NCBI GenBank assembly: GCA_027064085.1 | Contig: JAMOQH010000146.1 | Coordinates: 1-7,556 of the forward strand | Source of the DNA: a bacterium | GTDB taxonomy: Bacteria; UBP6; JAFGXH01 | DNA: 7,556 bases | Direction: 5' to 3' | In this document: piece after piece, positions 134 to 7,556 of the stretch | Numbering within the stretch: position 1 is the first letter of the stretch | Layout: each line of letters begins with the position of its first letter | Program-made: the position numbers and the translations under genes | Notes under the pieces: model-generated | The model's database searches: none | What the model saw: only the letters and a program-made list of their open reading frames with translations | Told to the model about the DNA's origin: nothing

Positions 134-2191
134 TTACTTTAATTTCAAATAATAATTGAATGTCGTTGAATTTTGAGTTGCTTTTCCTGCCTTAATATTT
201 TGAACTAATTTTTGGGCAAATTTTTTATCCACAGTATTATATTCTAAATCCACATAAAATTTATAATACCCAAATTCATTTAACTCTCTTAAGCGTTTTG
301 TTAGTGAAAAATCTTTATCCGAAAGAGTTAAACTAACTCCATTTTCTCTTTTAAAAATAAATTTTTCATCTCTTAATGATTTTACTTCATCTTGTTTACC
401 TAAGTTGGGGTGAGGTGCTCTTGAAACAAACAATCTAATTTTACCATATATAGGAACAATAATATTGTTAATATTTTTAGCATCTTTCATTAATTTAAGT
501 TCATTTTTGGTAATTTCTATTGATAAAACAGAAGCTTTTAAACCTCTTGAAGAAAAAAAGTTTACAGACTCTCTGTTTATTGTATCTATTTGATGCCCGC
601 TTATTACTTCTGTTGTTTTTATACCATCAAGTAATGCTAAATGTGATAAAGAGGTTATTTCAAACTTAGTAACTCCTTGCTTTGATAAAAATTTCAAATG
701 TTGTTTTACTTTATTAATATCTGCTTCAAACATTGCTGATGGAAATGAGAAAAATACTTTTCTGAAATTATATTCTTTTAAATTATTCATATTTCTATCG
801 TTCATAGTGAGAATAACATAAGCATTTTTTAATGTTGCAAAATGTTTTATAGCTCTATAATCTGATAATTTTACAAAAAACATAGGTTCTTTTACTGGAT
901 TTTTACTAACTTGTGCTAACTTATAGTTTTTTAAATTCAATTTTTTAGCTTTTACTATTCCTCTTAGTTTATTTGGCCATTTTGTTAAAGGAGGCTGACT
1001 AATTAAATATAAAGGGTCATTTCTTTCATATCTATAATCATCACTAATTGTTAGTTGAATTTGGTCATTAATAAATCCTTGCTCATAAGGCTGTCCTTTT
1101 ATATAAACATTTTTTACTTTTGAAGTTGAAGTATAATCTTTTTTAGCATTATGTAATCTTACCCTACTCTTAGCATATAATTCTTGATACAGTTTAATAG
1201 TAACTACATTTTCTTTTTGTTTTATAACTCTTCCTATAGCCTTTCCATAAACTCCAGCTCTAAAAGGGTCTGTTACATCATTAGGTGTAGCACTCAAATA
1301 AAAACCTTGGCTTTTTCTTCTACTTATTACTTGTTCCATAATTTCTTTTGCTTCAGGAAGTGCATTTTCAAAATCATTTAAGTTATCAACTAAATGCCTA
1401 TAAGCCTTCGTTACAGTATAAACATAATCTGCAGATTTCATTCTTCCTTCAATTTTTAATGCTTCTACACCAGTTGCTGCAATTTTATCTACAATCTCTA
1501 TAGTTTCCATATCGCTTAAGCTAAATAAGTATCCTTTTTTATTATCTTTATCAAATTTAAAATTCCTTCTACAAACTTGAGCACATAAACCTCTATTAGC
1601 ACTTAATCCACCTAAATAAGATGAAAAATAACAACTTCCACTTAAAGTATAACACATTGCCCCATGAACAAATACTTCAAGTTCAACATCAGGAACAGCT
1701 CTTTTAATTTTTGAAATTTCTTGCAAAGTTAAATGTCGTTCTAGCACGACCCTTTTAAAACCCAAATCCCTTAAAGTTAATATAGATGCAGAATTAAATG
1801 TTGACATCTGAGTAGATGCATGGAGCTCTATTCCTAATTGAATTATTTGTGTTCTTGTTTTAATTAAATGTAATAATCCTACATCTTGAACTATCAATCC
1901 ATCTGGTTTTAAATCTTCAATTATTTGTAAAAATCTATATAACTCAACTAATTCATCATCTTTTATTATAGTATTAAGAACAATAAACATTCTTTTATTT
2001 AATTTTTTTAAATATTTTTTTATAGTATAAAGTTCATTTATATTAAAATTACTTGCTTTTCCTCTTGCATTAAACTTTTGAAAACCCAAATAAACAGAAT
2101 CAGCTCCTCCTTCTATTGCAGCATATAAATTTTCAGCCTTTCCAACAGGAGAGAGTATTTCCGGTTTATTTAATATTATCTTTTTCTCCAT
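134..2191 (-). CDS. U32 family protein, RlhA/YdcP-like RNA hydroxylase (annotated 'peptidase U32')
   Basis: This 685-residue cytoplasmic protein belongs to the U32 family. Characterised members (RlhA, TrhP, UbiU/UbiV) are Fe-S hydroxylation proteins; RlhA makes 5-hydroxycytidine in 23S rRNA and depends on prephenate. Residues 9-265 form the U32 barrel: PEILSPVG near the start, GGADSVYLG at 28-36, HASTQMS at 124-130, then the signature with Cys180, Cys187, Cys203 and Cys207 (HGAMC, SGSCY, SANRGLCAQVCRR). The spacing C-x6-C-x15-C-x3-C is that of RlhA. KIEGRMKSADYV follows at 246-257. Residues about 300-415 resemble the DUF3656 domain found in RlhA-type long U32 proteins, and the length is close to E. 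coli RlhA (about 650). Residues about 435-670 look like a second, Cys-free U32-related half. The start is supported by an AAGGA Shine-Dalgarno 7 bases upstream. The exact substrate (rRNA or tRNA) cannot be read from the sequence. A true protease role is unlikely. Confidence 0.93.
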   Translation of the reverse strand: MEKKIILNKPEILSPVGKAENLYAAIEGGADSVYLGFQKFNARGKASNFNINELYTIKKYLKKLNKRMFIVLNTIIKDDELVELYRFLQIIEDLKPDGLIVQDVGLLHLIKTRTQIIQLGIELHASTQMSTFNSASILTLRDLGFKRVVLERHLTLQEISKIKRAVPDVELEVFVHGAMCYTLSGSCYFSSYLGGLSANRGLCAQVCRRNFKFDKDNKKGYLFSLSDMETIEIVDKIAATGVEALKIEGRMKSADYVYTVTKAYRHLVDNLNDFENALPEAKEIMEQVISRRKSQGFYLSATPNDVTDPFRAGVYGKAIGRVIKQKENVVTIKLYQELYAKSRVRLHNAKKDYTSTSKVKNVYIKGQPYEQGFINDQIQLTISDDYRYERNDPLYLISQPPLTKWPNKLRGIVKAKKLNLKNYKLAQVSKNPVKEPMFFVKLSDYRAIKHFATLKNAYVILTMNDRNMNNLKEYNFRKVFFSFPSAMFEADINKVKQHLKFLSKQGVTKFEITSLSHLALLDGIKTTEVISGHQIDTINRESVNFFSSRGLKASVLSIEITKNELKLMKDAKNINNIIVPIYGKIRLFVSRAPHPNLGKQDEVKSLRDEKFIFKRENGVSLTLSDKDFSLTKRLRELNEFGYYKFYVDLEYNTVDKKFAQKLVQNIKAGKATQNSTTFNYYLKLK

Positions 2192-2431: not shown

Positions 2432-4798
2432 TTAATTAAATTTTCTTTGAAAATAGCTAGATTTCTTATAACTTAATCTATCTTTTAAGGCTAAAGTGAA
2501 CTCTTTATTATTTTTGGATATAAGCTGAAATAATTTTTCGTTTAGGGAGAATATTTTTGTGGTTTTATTATAATTGAAGTATTTTTTCATAGCTCCTGTG
2601 GATAAAAATTTTATTGGATTTTTTATAGCTAACTTTTCAAAATCTTTTAGTTGCCATGTTCTCCAATTTTTATTTGATTTGTCATTTAAGTCAAGTTGAT
2701 ATCTTCTGTTATTTGTGTAGAAATCCATAAATTTATTAGCAATAGATAAACTTGTAACTTCTTTAATTGTTAAAGAATTATTTATAAAAGATAAAATTGT
2801 AGGAATTTTATAGGATTTGCTCATAGATGTTTTTTCTATATCCAATAGAAACTCTCCAATAAGCACGTACTCTGTTAGCCACTTTTTTTCTATATCATTT
2901 AAATCTCCAATTTCGTTTCTAAATTCTAACCATGACTTAAATTTATGTCTGTAAATGTTAAATGAATAATCACTCTGTTCAAAAATATCCATAACAGTTG
3001 GAGTTTTACCTAAATTCTTTTTAATTTCTTTATACTCTTCTATTAATCTCAATTTAATAGGCTCTGTTTTCTTTAATTCTTTAAATAGATTTAACAATTC
3101 AAAATCAAAGTAAGTTTGGCAATTATCTGGAAGTTTGTAATCTTTTTCTATAGGTAGAATTTTTTTATTTTTTGCTGGATTATAATATCCTGTCAAAAAA
3201 CTATATTTAAAATCAGCTCCTTTATAATTTCCTACAAAGTCTAAAACTGTTAAGTATTCCTTGTTTGGAGCAAGCCTTAATCCTCTTCCTAATTGTTGTA
3301 TAAAAATTGTATATGACATTGTCGGCCTTAAAAATAAAACCGTTTCTATATTTGGAATATCTATACCTTCATTAAAAATATCTACTACAAATAAAACAGC
3401 AGTATCTCCCAATTCAAAATTTTCTATAATTTTTTTTCTTTCTTTCTTATTATTTACTCCACTATGTAAAGCTACTGATTTAATATTATAATTATTAAAC
3501 TCTTTAGCCATATACTCAGCATGTTTTATACTTACACAAAAAGCAACAGTTTTTCCTTGATAATAAGATTCATATTTAGAAATGATATTTTCTGTTCTTT
3601 TAGATATCATAATTACATTTTCTAATTCATTTAAATCATATTTCCCACTTCTCCAAGAGATTTTACTATAATCAATATCATCATAAATACCAAAATATTT
3701 AAAAGGAACAAGCCAAGAGTTATTTATTCCAGTTTTTAAATCACACTCGTATGCAATATTGTAATCACATAATTTATAGATATCTTTATTGTCTGTTCTG
3801 TATGGTGTAGCCGTTACTCCTAATAAAAATTTGGGATTGAAATACTCTATAAGTTTTTTATATGAATCAGCTGCTGCATGATGGAATTCATCTATGATAA
3901 TATAATCAAAATAATCTTCTTTAAAGTAATTATCATTAAGATATTTATCCTTTCCTAAAGTTTGAATTGTAGCAAAAATCACATCACTATTTTTATCTTT
4001 TTTATTTCCAATAAAGAATCCTGTATTTAAATCTTTATCAACTTTTTTATATGACTTTTCAGATTGAATTAAAATTTCTTCTCTATGAGCAATAAAGAGT
4101 ACTTTTTTATATCCCATAGAGTCAAAAACAGTTAAATATGTCTTACCAAGTCCTGTTGCGGCAATAACCATTGCTTTTTTATATCCTTCTTCTCTCGTTT
4201 GATTTAATTCATAAAGAGCAGGAATTTGAAAGTTTATTGGTTGTATATCTGTTTGTGATAGAGTTTTAACTTCAGAATATATAGTTTTTCTCCAAGTTTT
4301 ATTATAATCTCTTAAAAATTGTATACTAACAGGTTTACTTTCTTGCTCATATAATAAATTAAACTCATTAATTATATCTTCAAAATCACTCTTATTATTT
4401 GATATTTTATAATTCCATTCTATACCATAAGTTAATGCTGTTTTTGATATATTAGATGAACCAATTATCACATCTCCAATACCATTTTCATATTCAAAAA
4501 TATATGTTTTAGGATGAAAAGATCTATTAAAATCTTTATAAACTCTAATATCTAAGTTTTCACCAAGCTCAGATTTCAATAAGTACAAAGCATTTGGTTC
4601 TGTAATATTTAAGTAAATTCCTGTTAAAATTCTTATTTTTATATCATTATTTTCACTAATTAGCTCTTTTAACTCAGAAATCAGTAATTTTACCCCAGAC
4701 TCTAAAATAAAGGCTACAATAATATTAACTCTAATTGATTTTAATATTGATTTTTTAAGCTCAGGAAGCAAATCCTGTGTGCTACCAAAGAGGTTCAT
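2432..4798 (-). CDS. PLD-type (HKD) nuclease fused to an SF2 DEAD/DEAH helicase, complete
   Basis: The 788-residue protein joins two enzymes. Residues 1-150 are a phospholipase-D-superfamily nuclease with a single active-site half: H95-x-K97, Glu102, G113-S-S-N116 and E127-W-N. The arrangement H-x-K, Asn, Glu resembles metal-independent PLD nucleases such as BfiI, which work as dimers. Residues about 185-525 are an SF2 (ResIII/COG1061-like) helicase: Walker A ATGLGKT 214-220, DEFH 303-306, TATP 329-332, FNEGIDIP 475-482, QQLGRGLR 501-508. Residues about 580-788 are a helical extension ending in an aromatic and basic tail (SYFQRKFN). It presumably translocates on or remodels nucleic acid while the N-terminal domain cuts it. 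All key motifs are intact. It is a paralogue of the next gene upstream but lacks that gene's DUF3427 tail. A strong Shine-Dalgarno fixes the start. A defence or restriction role is inferred from family context only. Confidence 0.92.
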   Translation of the reverse strand: MNLFGSTQDLLPELKKSILKSIRVNIIVAFILESGVKLLISELKELISENNDIKIRILTGIYLNITEPNALYLLKSELGENLDIRVYKDFNRSFHPKTYIFEYENGIGDVIIGSSNISKTALTYGIEWNYKISNNKSDFEDIINEFNLLYEQESKPVSIQFLRDYNKTWRKTIYSEVKTLSQTDIQPINFQIPALYELNQTREEGYKKAMVIAATGLGKTYLTVFDSMGYKKVLFIAHREEILIQSEKSYKKVDKDLNTGFFIGNKKDKNSDVIFATIQTLGKDKYLNDNYFKEDYFDYIIIDEFHHAAADSYKKLIEYFNPKFLLGVTATPYRTDNKDIYKLCDYNIAYECDLKTGINNSWLVPFKYFGIYDDIDYSKISWRSGKYDLNELENVIMISKRTENIISKYESYYQGKTVAFCVSIKHAEYMAKEFNNYNIKSVALHSGVNNKKERKKIIENFELGDTAVLFVVDIFNEGIDIPNIETVLFLRPTMSYTIFIQQLGRGLRLAPNKEYLTVLDFVGNYKGADFKYSFLTGYYNPAKNKKILPIEKDYKLPDNCQTYFDFELLNLFKELKKTEPIKLRLIEEYKEIKKNLGKTPTVMDIFEQSDYSFNIYRHKFKSWLEFRNEIGDLNDIEKKWLTEYVLIGEFLLDIEKTSMSKSYKIPTILSFINNSLTIKEVTSLSIANKFMDFYTNNRRYQLDLNDKSNKNWRTWQLKDFEKLAIKNPIKFLSTGAMKKYFNYNKTTKIFSLNEKLFQLISKNNKEFTLALKDRLSYKKSSYFQRKFN

Positions 4799-4802
4799 GG
4801 TG

Positions 4803-4808
4803 CTCCTT
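4803..4808 (-). promoter_or_regulatory. Strong Shine-Dalgarno of the PLD-helicase gene
   Basis: AAGGAG on the - strand lies 4 bases before the ATG at 4798. It confirms that the protein begins MNLFGSTQ and that no residues are missing ahead of the nuclease domain. Confidence 0.8.
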
Positions 4809-4859
4809 GTTATTAGATTTTTTCATTCTTAATACACTAAAATAAAAATTTCAAAGCTA

Positions 4860-4889
4860 ACTCTACTAAATCCAAATCAAGCTTGTCAA
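4860..4889 (-). promoter_or_regulatory. Candidate promoter of the PLD-helicase gene
   Basis: On the - strand a perfect -35 box TTGACA (4889-4884) is followed by an 18-base spacer and a -10-like TAGAGT (4865-4860), 4 of 6 matches. Transcription would start near 4853, about 55 bases before the ATG. The -35 box overlaps a small inverted repeat (TTGT-caa-ACAA, 4883-4893). The -10 is mediocre, so an activator or a different -10 in the AT-rich stretch just below is possible. Confidence 0.4.
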
Positions 4890-4901
4890 ACAATAAGTAG
4901 T

Positions 4902-4938
4902 AATATTATCTATTCACATCCCCCAAAATATTATTCAC
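4902..4938. repeat. Imperfect direct repeat upstream of the -35 box
   Basis: AATATTAT occurs at 4902-4909 and 4927-4934, each soon followed by TATTCAC (4911-4917 and 4932-4938). The TATTCAC copies are exactly 21 bases apart, two helical turns. They sit 13-49 bases upstream of the candidate -35 of the PLD-helicase gene, where a regulator could bind. Chance repetition in AT-rich DNA is possible. Confidence 0.3.
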
Positions 4939-4964
4939 CCTAAGCTCTCCCACGAGCCTAAGTG
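4936..4964. repeat. Short hairpin with a CCTAAG direct repeat
   Basis: CAC (4936-4938) pairs with GTG (4962-4964) and GCTC (4944-4947) with GAGC (4954-4957) around a TCCCAC loop. CCTAAG is repeated directly at 4939-4944 and 4957-4962, forming the internal loop. This is a small, fairly GC-rich island in an AT-rich spacer. No known element is recognised. Confidence 0.3.
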
Positions 4965-4990
4965 ATCCAAATTACCAAATCTCATAATAA

Positions 4991-5010
4991 ATTAAACATT
5001 TATGGTTAAT
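4991..5010. repeat. 20-bp near-perfect palindrome
   Basis: Bases 4991-5010 are symmetric about 5000/5001: ATTAA pairs with TTAAT and CAT with ATG, with one A/G mismatch and a T/T centre. It is the first of three consecutive inverted repeats running to 5088. It could be an operator or part of a folded 3' region of the upstream gene. Confidence 0.4.
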
Positions 5011-5015
5011 TTTTA

Positions 5016-5040
5016 ATTTTTTAAACTTCGGTTAAAAAAT
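5016..5040. terminator. AT-rich hairpin with a C(UUCG)G loop on the + strand
   Basis: ATTTTTT (5016-5022) pairs with AAAAAAT (5034-5040), and AAC (5024-5026) pairs with GTT (5031-5033), leaving A5023 bulged and TTCG as the loop. On the + strand this is the very stable C(UUCG)G tetraloop. On the - strand the structure follows the GC-rich hairpin and may act as a second termination or processing site for the DUF3427 helicase transcript. Its A-tract/T-tract stem could serve either direction. Confidence 0.45.
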
Positions 5041-5050
5041 CCATGCAAAA

Positions 5051-5088
5051 CACCTTGTAGGGCGGGGGTTTTCCCTTCCCGAAAGGTG
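5051..5088 (-). terminator. GC-rich hairpin just after the DUF3427 helicase stop; candidate intrinsic terminator
   Basis: CACCTT (5051-5056) pairs with AAGGTG (5083-5088), GGG (5060-5062) with CCC (5078-5080) and GGG (5065-5067) with CCC (5073-5075), with a G:T wobble between the two G:C blocks and a GTTTT loop. 23 of 38 bases are G or C, very unlike the rest of the window. On the - strand it starts 10 bases after the stop codon (5101-5099) and the RNA continues UUUUGCAUGGAUUUUUU, so termination is plausible although the U-run is broken. A stem with blocks of G and C is also what IS200/IS605-type element ends look like, so a relic of such an element is an alternative. Confidence 0.5.
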
Positions 5089-5098
5089 GTTGGAATGT

Positions 5099-7556
5099 CT
5101 ACGCCTCAATAATATACTTATACATCTTCTCATCAATAACATCTTTCATGATAAAAAACACTTCAACAATAGGAAACTCTTTTCCTTTTGCATCTTTAAT
5201 TCTTGTTTGATGAAAGTTTTCAGAAATAGCATCTAAGTCACCAACATAAAAAAATTCTTCTTCTTTTTTTCCTTTTCTTATGAATAAGGGAAGTCTTAAT
5301 TTATTAGACATAATAGCTGAAACATCTGGACTATTTAGAGTTCTTTTTGATTTTGACATCCATTTGAAGCTCGTTCTATCAATAAATCCATCATTATACT
5401 TTGTTGTTTCGGAAATGTCAGTTGCTTTGTGATAATTTATGAAAATAGGACAATTACCTTTATCTAAATTAACTTTATAGCCACCAATATTTATTCCCAC
5501 TTCATTTAAATCCCAATTCAAAATTCTTAATATGTTTTTTCTTGAATACTTTTCATATAATTGAAATCCATCTCTCTCAAGATTTGGGTTATAATTTTGA
5601 TTAAAAACCCTTTCTGAATAATATAAAGTATCAAGTAGATACTCTTTAAATTTTGAAACCTTTAAATGTTCTAAAAAGTCGTTTTCTATTTTAAATATAT
5701 CATTTTCATATTTAACAGTATTAAAACCATATATTTCATTAACAGTTTTTAATTTTTTGTTTTTCTTTTCTGTAATAAATTCAAAATTTAGATTTTTAAG
5801 TATTGAAGTGATTTTTAGTTCATAAAGTTCTTTTTTATATTCTTTTAATTTTGATTCTAATTTATTTTTTGTTATTTGTTTATTTTTGATTAATTCTTTT
5901 AAAACTAAAATTTCTTCTATTCTCTTTCCATCTAAAATATTTTCTGAAAATAATTCTAATATTTTTTTTCTATCTTCATTTAGTTTATATTTTTCTTCTT
6001 TAATAAGATATAAAAAATTATAATATGATTTACTATAATCAACATATGATTTAGGGTTTCTTGAGTCATAATTGAGAAAATCTATCATTTTAGGCTTATA
6101 ACCTAATTTAAATTTTAATAATTTATAATCATCAATTAAATCTTTTTTAGTTTTTAAGTTAGAATTATCTAATGCCTTAAATATTCTATCTTTTGAGATT
6201 TTATCAAAGTTGATACTTGAACTTCCTGGAATATAACTACTCCCATTTATTAAAAGCTTTCTAATCTTTTCTTTATCATAACTTCTATCTCCAAATAAGG
6301 CAATTGGAATTAAATAGTTATTTTGATAATTTCCAATAAAGTCAATTACAGTTAAATAGTCTTTACCTACAACTTTTCTTAAACCTCTACCTAATTGTTG
6401 AATAAAAATAATTGCAGATTGAGTTGGTCTTAGCATAATAACTTGGTTTATTTTAGGAATATCAATTCCTTCATTAAAAATATCAACAGTTAAAATATAA
6501 TCAAGTTTATTATCTTCTAGTTTTTTAATTGCATCTTTTCTTTCAGCCTCAAAGTTTTCACCACTTAAGCTAACAGTTTTTAAACCTAAATTATTAAGTT
6601 TACTAGATAACTTTTTCGCTTCTTCATTTCTACTACAAAATATTAAACCTCTAGTTTCACCATCATCAGTGCCATAAGTTTCTATGGCTTTTAATATATG
6701 ATTAACTCTATCATCTGATGTTAGAATTTTAAAGTCACTAAGCTTATCAATACTTTCATTATCAATAATTAAATCACTTATTCCATAATAGTGGAATGGT
6801 ACAAGCATCTCTTCTTCAAGAGCTCTATTTAATCTTATTTCATAAGCAATATTATGGTCAAACTCTTTAAAGATATCATTTCCGTCTGTTCTTTCTGGAG
6901 TAGCGGTCATTCCTAATAAAAATTTAGGACTAAAATAATTTAAAATCTTTTGATATGTTTTTGCACTTACTCTATGGGTTTCATCGATTACAATATAATC
7001 AAAATGTTTTTTTGCAAATTTTTCTAAGTTTTTATCTTTAGAAATTGTTTGTATAGTTGAAAATATAAAGTCTTTATCATGTTCTTTATCATTTCCAGAG
7101 TAAAAACCCATACTTACTTTACCTTTAAAGATGTTTTTATAACTTTCCATTGCCGCTTCAGCAATATTTCGCCTATGAACAACAAATAAAAGTTTTTTTG
7201 CATTAAAGTTTTTTGCATCAAATGCTGATAAATATGTTTTACCTGTTCCTGTTGCTGATATTAAAAGAGCTTTATTTTTACCTTCTAATCTAAGTTTTCT
7301 TAGGTTGCCTAAAGCTTCTTCTTGCATTTTATTAGGTGAAATTTTTCTTAATTTATCAACTTCTTTATTTTCCTCTATTTTTTTGTATTTCCTCTTTTGG
7401 TATATTTCTTCATAAGCCTTAATAAAAGTTTCATCTACTTCAATAGCTCTTTCAAATTCTTTTTCTGCATCTTTAAAAACCTCTTCTACAATACTAGAAT
7501 TTTCTGTTGCAGAAACCATTAAATTCCACTCTTTATTAACAGAAAGAGCACTTGCT
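5099..7556 (-). CDS. SF2 DEAD/DEAH helicase with DUF3427 C-terminal domain and the end of a PLD nuclease domain (5' partial)
   Basis: The frame is open to the right edge. The ATG at 7519 is very probably internal: the 12 codons before it read ASALSVNKEWNL with no stop, and SALxxNxEWN is the close of the PLD nuclease domain, as in the downstream paralogue (TALTYGIEWN). No clear Shine-Dalgarno precedes that ATG at normal spacing. Numbered from that Met, the helicase motifs are Walker A ATGTGKT 89-95, DETH 179-182, TATP 205-208, FNEGIDIP 348-355 and QQLGRGLR 374-381. A Lys/Glu-rich, probably helical region follows at about 505-620. Residues about 650-800 match DUF3427 (LYEKYSRKNILRILNW, CPIFINYHK, TSFKWMSKSKRT, FFYVGDL). 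DUF3427 has no firmly assigned activity; it may recognise a nucleic-acid feature. The complete protein probably exceeds 900 residues. All visible motifs are intact. Defence function is an inference from the domain architecture. Confidence 0.92.
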   Translation of the reverse strand, partial: ASALSVNKEWNLMVSATENSSIVEEVFKDAEKEFERAIEVDETFIKAYEEIYQKRKYKKIEENKEVDKLRKISPNKMQEEALGNLRKLRLEGKNKALLISATGTGKTYLSAFDAKNFNAKKLLFVVHRRNIAEAAMESYKNIFKGKVSMGFYSGNDKEHDKDFIFSTIQTISKDKNLEKFAKKHFDYIVIDETHRVSAKTYQKILNYFSPKFLLGMTATPERTDGNDIFKEFDHNIAYEIRLNRALEEEMLVPFHYYGISDLIIDNESIDKLSDFKILTSDDRVNHILKAIETYGTDDGETRGLIFCSRNEEAKKLSSKLNNLGLKTVSLSGENFEAERKDAIKKLEDNKLDYILTVDIFNEGIDIPKINQVIMLRPTQSAIIFIQQLGRGLRKVVGKDYLTVIDFIGNYQNNYLIPIALFGDRSYDKEKIRKLLINGSSYIPGSSSINFDKISKDRIFKALDNSNLKTKKDLIDDYKLLKFKLGYKPKMIDFLNYDSRNPKSYVDYSKSYYNFLYLIKEEKYKLNEDRKKILELFSENILDGKRIEEILVLKELIKNKQITKNKLESKLKEYKKELYELKITSILKNLNFEFITEKKNKKLKTVNEIYGFNTVKYENDIFKIENDFLEHLKVSKFKEYLLDTLYYSERVFNQNYNPNLERDGFQLYEKYSRKNILRILNWDLNEVGINIGGYKVNLDKGNCPIFINYHKATDISETTKYNDGFIDRTSFKWMSKSKRTLNSPDVSAIMSNKLRLPLFIRKGKKEEEFFYVGDLDAISENFHQTRIKDAKGKEFPIVEVFFIMKDVIDEKMYKYIIEA

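Follow-up and report, generated by a model that had tools for sequence, protein, structure and literature searches.

Organization of the locus

The window analyzed here, a DNA stretch of 7,556 nucleotides, is an entire contig (C146) of a 3.65-Mb draft genome and carries its open reading frames (ORFs) on the minus strand, namely, P2, P1, and a U32 peptidase. The features discussed in this study are as follows:

134-2191, minus strand: U32 peptidase
2432-4798, minus strand: P1, a complete protein of 788 amino acids composed of a PLD nuclease, an SF2 motor, and a C-terminal domain (ORF list and family matches)
4319-4771, minus strand: PLD-family nuclease domain of P1, around residues 10-160 (PF13091, E = 1e-7; aligned to the nuclease domain of SauUSI)
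4508-4516, minus strand: H95-P-K97 of P1, the equivalent of H119-x-K121 in SauUSI, invariant in the family alignment
3224-4243, minus strand: SF2 helicase-like ATPase of P1 with ATGLGKT, DEFH, and QQLGRGLR (PF04851, E = 4e-35; PF00271, E = 2e-16)
2906-3049, minus strand: HNH_repeat segment of P1, the counterpart of the first coupler subdomain of SauUSI (PF18780, E = 3e-8)
2435-2881, minus strand: C-terminal domain of P1, a proposed target reader (profile, AlphaFold2, and structure comparisons)
2807-2824, minus strand: M659-x-K-S-Y663-K664 of P1, with M, Y, and K invariant in 58 sequences
2615-2620, minus strand: N727-P728 of P1, with P invariant and only M or N before it in 58 sequences
5099-7555, minus strand: P2, a predicted SauUSI-type enzyme of 818 codons, open at the contig end with its N-terminal ~142 residues off the contig (7clg; PADLOC PDLC03658)
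6323-7345, minus strand: SF2 helicase-like ATPase of P2 (PF04851, E = 1e-42)
5111-5950, minus strand: DUF3427 of P2, i.e., part of the coupler plus the SRA target-recognition domain (PF11907; 7clg alignment)
4799-5098, no strand: 300-nucleotide gap between P2 and P1, in which a partner gene was not found

Between P2 and P1, we also noticed a GC-rich stretch on the plus strand (5053-5077; CCTTGTAGGGCGGGGGTTTTCCC), which resembles a terminator or the end of a mobile element.

The original prediction on this DNA described two tandem paralogous ORFs sharing a core, and both are indeed present on the minus strand; P1 and P2 were aligned by BLASTP with 38% identity across 560 residues (E = 7e-91), and their common motifs therefore reflect homology and not chance. 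The same order of domains had also been claimed for the two proteins: the helicase cores match and P1 is complete, but the PLD domain of P2 lies almost entirely off the contig, so that the order in P2 is an extrapolation. The further idea of a duplicated core with swapped recognition modules agrees with what we found, in that P2 ends in DUF3427/SRA and P1 in another C-terminal domain.

Comparison of P2 and P1 with SauUSI

P2 is predicted to be a SauUSI-type type IV restriction enzyme, adding a member to a family that is already known. It was aligned with residues 143-928 of SauUSI (PDB 7clg; E = 4.6e-171), covered positions 143-951 of the PADLOC mREase_IV model (PDLC03658; E = 7e-177) up to the model end, and matched the families ResIII, Helicase_C (PF00271), and DUF3427 (PF11907; E = 6e-72). 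The SF2 ATPase, the coupler, and the C-terminal DUF3427/SRA reader of the SauUSI family are all present in P2 and are like those of SauUSI, while nearly all of the nuclease domain is missing from the contig; what can be seen of it is the final stretch (ASALSVNKEWN...), which aligns from residue 143 of SauUSI, and the PLD active site (HxK) is beyond the contig end, as is the region upstream of P2. SauUSI restricts DNA containing 5-methylcytosine (5mC) and 5-hydroxymethylcytosine (5hmC) (PMC3874153), and its modelled 5mC pocket consists of Y831, F841, I842, D858, and W868 with M829 as a finger (PMC7913695). In the 7clg alignment, P2 keeps five of these six residues (Y831, F841, I842, D858, and W868), and M829 is replaced with G.

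P1, in turn, appears from its sequence to be a complete paralogue of P2 and SauUSI with a different C-terminal domain, representing an undescribed variant. P1 matched PLDc_2, ResIII, Helicase_C, and HNH_repeat and was aligned with residues 55-665 of SauUSI (7clg), which comprise the nuclease, the motor, and the first coupler subdomain; a Foldseek search with the full model of P1 hit SauUSI and SF2 helicases only. Both the PLD nuclease with HxK and the SF2 motor, the features of the SauUSI family, are thus seen in P1. The active-site motif of SauUSI is H119-x-K121 (PMC7913695), and the corresponding H95-x-K97 as well as GSSN was invariant in seven P1 orthologues, with the PLD active-site residues intact. 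While P1 and SauUSI are alike in the PLD nuclease, the motor, and the start of the coupler, P1 has no DUF3427/SRA reader: PF11907 gave no match in P1, the 7clg alignment stops at residue 665, and P1 covers only positions 53-665 of the PADLOC mREase_IV model (E = 1e-89). The original prediction did not recognize the pair as a named defense system; its DUF3427 protein is, however, of the SauUSI type by these alignments, and PADLOC labels both P1 and P2 as mREase_IV. A PLD nuclease and an SF2 motor are also combined in NgoAVII and CglI, as in P1, but these systems differ in being composed of two subunits and in reading DNA with a B3 domain (PMC7913695).

Distribution of P1 and its co-occurrence with SauUSI

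P1 represents a widespread family without a name. When searched with a profile built from its last 160 residues, P1 was found in 97 of the 397 genomes (24%) of Bacillales, the order of Metabacillus, and, at E < 1e-18, in roughly 27 of the 391 genomes in the class of a Clostridiaceae genome, where weaker matches belonged to another architecture. In the phylum of the window, P1 was found in one of 28 genomes; among these 28 and 99 relatives, no P1 was found beyond the genome of the window itself. Pairwise identity among the 62 full-length members had a median of 45%, and grouping at 80% gave 48 groups; the counts of neighborhoods described below are therefore not those of copies of one locus.

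Among the 150 genomes covered by both searches, P1 was found in 43, DUF3427 proteins in 67, and both in 28, as against an expectation of 19.2 (p = 0.002, Fisher test). Twelve of the 28 Bacillales genomes holding both had the P1 and SauUSI genes within ~12 kb of each other, so that their adjacency, for which a check across genomes had been proposed, is not confined to one genome. The arrangement varies: the two genes are divergent in Metabacillus, and SauUSI is upstream or downstream of P1 elsewhere. The pair is favored but not obligate because most loci of either kind are without the other; an obligate two-component system of P1 and P2, as suggested originally, is hence not supported, and the steady partners are instead small enzymes.

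Small enzymes encoded beside P1 and SauUSI

In 62 of the 64 P1 loci (42/42 in Bacillales and 20/22 in Clostridia and others), which were the best-scoring ones and were counted irrespective of relatedness, P1 was found beside a gene for PRA-PH (MazG-like), HIT, or methyltransferase. In Bacillales, the MazG-like gene was directly upstream in 39 of the 42 loci, usually overlapping the start of P1 by 4 to 20 nucleotides, and a HIT gene was present in the other three. The loci of Clostridia and others contained PRA-PH, HIT, or class I SAM methyltransferase in variable order. The match of the MazG-like partner to PF01503 is marginal (E = 3e-4), and its acidic ExxE and ExxD motifs are conserved. Relatives of PRA-PH were also found with no such nuclease nearby. 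In the window, no gene for PRA-PH, HIT, methyltransferase, or NUDIX was found, with the top tblastn match (E = 0.002) being within P2.

SauUSI, on the other hand, had a NUDIX gene within 1.2 kb in 35 of the 40 Bacillales loci, located upstream in the same direction or downstream in a convergent orientation. In Staphylococcus aureus, the stop of NUDIX overlaps the start of SauUSI, and the two are translationally coupled; in Latilactobacillus, they are 9 nucleotides apart. The S. aureus NUDIX corresponds to PDB 5x1x, for which CTP pyrophosphohydrolases (3gwy and 2rrk) and MutT2 are the next closest. NudG is the closest NCBIfam model for the Metabacillus NUDIX, yet the score is under the equivalog cut-off (98 vs 156 bits), and the hydrolase linked to SauUSI may accordingly be described as NudG-like by closest match. 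NudG hydrolyzes 5-methyl-dCTP with kcat/Km of 3e5 per M per s (PMC3744803). The idea of the SauUSI-NUDIX pairing is mainly supported by the chemistry of NudG, because its substrate (5-methyl-dCTP) matches the target of SauUSI (5mC and 5hmC). A NUDIX partner is not mentioned in the paper on the SauUSI mechanism (PMC7913695), and our search of the freely accessible literature returned no paper in which SauUSI was linked to NUDIX or a PLD-helicase to PRA-PH.

Several individual loci deserve description. A NUDIX adjoining SauUSI (L016, 8133-8531) matches the PADLOC defense candidate PDC-S07 (E = 1e-56), for which SauUSI does not seem to be given as a partner. The coupled NUDIX gene of S. aureus strain 333 is at 4962-5354 of L192; this record contains two copies of the SauUSI region in opposite orientations, probably as an assembly artefact. 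Another type IV setting of PRA-PH was seen in L290 (3-4960), where McrB-like and McrC-like genes are followed by PRA-PH and then by an HNH protein. In L017 (1065-9146), P1 is directly downstream of DISARM-type-looking genes for 1151 and 625 amino acids and has none of PRA-PH, HIT, and methyltransferase.

These linkages might also mean that the partners are weapons; NUDIX and MazG-like enzymes would destroy the modified dNTPs of a phage and the nucleases its modified DNA, so that the same phages would be attacked at two levels. The linkage of P1 (62/64) and that of SauUSI to NUDIX (35/40) also fit this idea, as do the match of NUDIX to PDC-S07 (E = 1e-56) and the action of SauUSI on 5mC and 5hmC DNA (PMC3874153), but the HIT and methyltransferase partners are left unexplained, and we consider such a role of the partners rather unlikely.

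The C-terminal domain of P1

The C-terminal part of P1 had been described as a helical tail ending in SYFQRKFN, a view that needs to be revised: it is not a generic tail but a conserved domain, as the AlphaFold2 model of residues 557-788 obtained with 58 sequences had a mean pLDDT of 93.7 and a pTM of 0.86. Among the 58 sequences, only M659, Y663, K664, and P728 were invariant in the domain. A profile search of the domain against PDB gave MBT matches only, which we judged to be by chance.

A C-terminal domain of the P1 type recurs in a second helicase family (hhalign 97.8%), the N-terminus of which is different and nuclease-like, with a match to MTES_1575 below the cut-off. Furthermore, the first 135 residues of a McrB-like protein in the genome of the window (contig C34) matched the pooled profile of the P1 domain with a score of 37.5 (E = 5e-6), against a maximum of 24.2 in 110 control proteins. 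On this contig (L312, 431-6161), PRA-PH is encoded 14 nucleotides upstream of an SF2 helicase of 839 amino acids that ends in a domain of the P1 type, followed by the McrB-like protein; upstream of this cluster are a protein resembling NERD and a large fusion resembling RecQ/UvrD. The DNA reader of McrB sits at the N-terminus (PMC3874153). The C-terminal domain of P1 is therefore probably a target reader that senses a modification, because it recurs in the second helicase fusion and at the reader position of the McrB-like protein. McrBC is nonetheless unlike P1 in having a GTP-dependent AAA motor and a PD-(D/E)XK nuclease, and both the McrB-type and SauUSI-type comparisons speak of similarity, not of activity.

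A family of 330-amino-acid HNH endonucleases adjoins PRA-PH at four loci (L302, 3771-4763; L280, 482-1480; L292, 4195-5184; L298, 2802-3791); its N-terminal domain is weakly like the P1 domain and makes a weaker case, given that the score of 25.1 is just over the control maximum of 24.2. We also noticed a P1-like protein of 983 amino acids with a C-terminal Peptidase_S24 match in Pseudoalteromonas (L020, 11341-14895), which is directly preceded by a class I methyltransferase gene and followed by an ABC-three component system.

As to the mark to be read, the domain may be a sulfur-binding domain (SBD), in which case P1 would be a phosphorothioate-dependent restriction enzyme and its HIT, MazG-like, and methyltransferase partners would handle thio-nucleotides or released sulfide. 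HIT enzymes may act on thio-nucleotides. In VIA-align, the structure most similar to the P1 domain was that of the Hga SBD bound to phosphorothioated DNA (Z of 8.5 over 118 residues, rank 1), but this Z is near the background, with the typical best Z of the list itself being 7 to 8 and that of ORC winged helices being 8.0. The winged helices of ORC/Cdc6, MarR, and MukE in the list were taken as a common winged-helix arrangement. Foldseek gave E of 0.4 or worse for the P1 domain, the hhalign comparison with SBD was not significant (empirical P of 0.07 to 0.26, with a shallow SBD profile), and no SBD match was obtained from NCBIfam or Pfam. The pocket of SBD is formed by H116-R117 and Y164-P165 (PMC6224610), i.e., HR/HK and YP, to which the invariant Y663-K664 and [M/N]727-P728 of P1 can be matched, albeit by eye and not by structural superposition. 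SBD structures were retrieved with a consensus sequence as a probe, and the real structures were then used in the search for SBD-HNH genes, which were found in 29 of the 348 Bacillales genomes. Of 25 SBD-HNH loci, 14 have a neighboring gene of the same PRA-PH family, which is hence a partner common to P1 and SBD-HNH. SBD enzymes such as ScoMcrA, SprMcrA, and EcoWI, with which the P1 domain possibly shares a fold and pocket-like invariant residues, differ from P1 in having an HNH nuclease instead of a PLD nuclease with a motor, and their sequence match is not significant. Likeness of P1 to the phosphorothioate-reading SBD is thus a suggestive lead, and we regard P1 as a phosphorothioate-dependent enzyme as possible but doubtful.

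Defense context of P1

Enrichment of defense genes near P1, another check proposed originally, was evident: 110 neighbors of P1 matched 181 PADLOC families at E of 1e-10, while 110 control ORFs, taken from control regions in the same genome group, matched 7, the comparison being of one sample with one control and in redundant families rather than genes. Those near P1 include Orf5/SspE-type, HEC-06, PDC-S11, CARF, and Cas6 models.

Alternatively, P1 might be a helicase-nuclease for DNA repair or housekeeping, the partners of which are ordinary house-cleaning enzymes and the proximity of which to SauUSI means only a shared island. The motor of P1 is indeed similar to RadD, and the occurrence in 24% of the sampled Bacillales genomes is broad; nonetheless, P1 is patchy (1/28 genomes in the phylum of the window), its PLD nuclease is of the restriction type, its flanks are rich in defense genes compared with the control, and its domain is shared with the McrB-like protein. 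A housekeeping role is therefore quite improbable.

Proposed mechanism and significance

What the sequences show directly is how the domains are arranged, that the proteins are homologous to SauUSI, and which genes are linked. We consider it reasonably probable that both P1 and P2 belong to the modification-dependent (type IV) restriction enzymes and differ in their readers, and that each is paired in many genomes with a nucleotide-metabolizing enzyme. By analogy, a shared chassis is proposed, in which a dimeric PLD nuclease would cut DNA and the SF2 motor would translocate after the terminal reader recognizes a modified site. P2 would read 5mC or 5hmC with the SRA domain (DUF3427), as SauUSI does, and P1 would read another mark with its own C-terminal domain; reading different marks, the pair would therefore widen the range of modified invading DNA that is open to attack.

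In many genomes, SauUSI is linked to a putative NudG-like NUDIX and P1 to a predicted MazG-like NTP pyrophosphohydrolase, a HIT protein, or a methyltransferase. We infer that the partner most likely clears nucleotides bearing the mark read by the nuclease from the pool and would thereby spare the host DNA from being marked; it is less easy to see how a HIT protein or a methyltransferase would contribute to such cleaning of the pool, which counts against our explanation. This linkage with small nucleotide-metabolizing enzymes is a new element and hints at a partnership in bacterial immunity that has gone unrecognized. More tentatively, modification-dependent restriction enzymes might generally be paired with a pool enzyme for the same modification, where the hydrolase would prevent the modification from entering host DNA and the nuclease would take it as a sign of foreign DNA; one such case would be SauUSI with its NUDIX of the 5-methyl-dCTP type and another P1 and SBD-HNH with the MazG-like enzyme, and the new reader of P1 would be common to McrB-type and other nucleases.

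In S. aureus, SauUSI constitutes one of the main obstacles to gene transfer (PMC7913695), and the literature searched did not address how type IV enzymes refrain from attacking the host DNA upon scavenging of modified nucleotides. The conserved pairs of a nuclease and a hydrolase make the avoidance of self-attack by the host directly testable, and the P1 family represents a common restriction-like enzyme, previously uncharacterized, with a candidate reader domain of its own.
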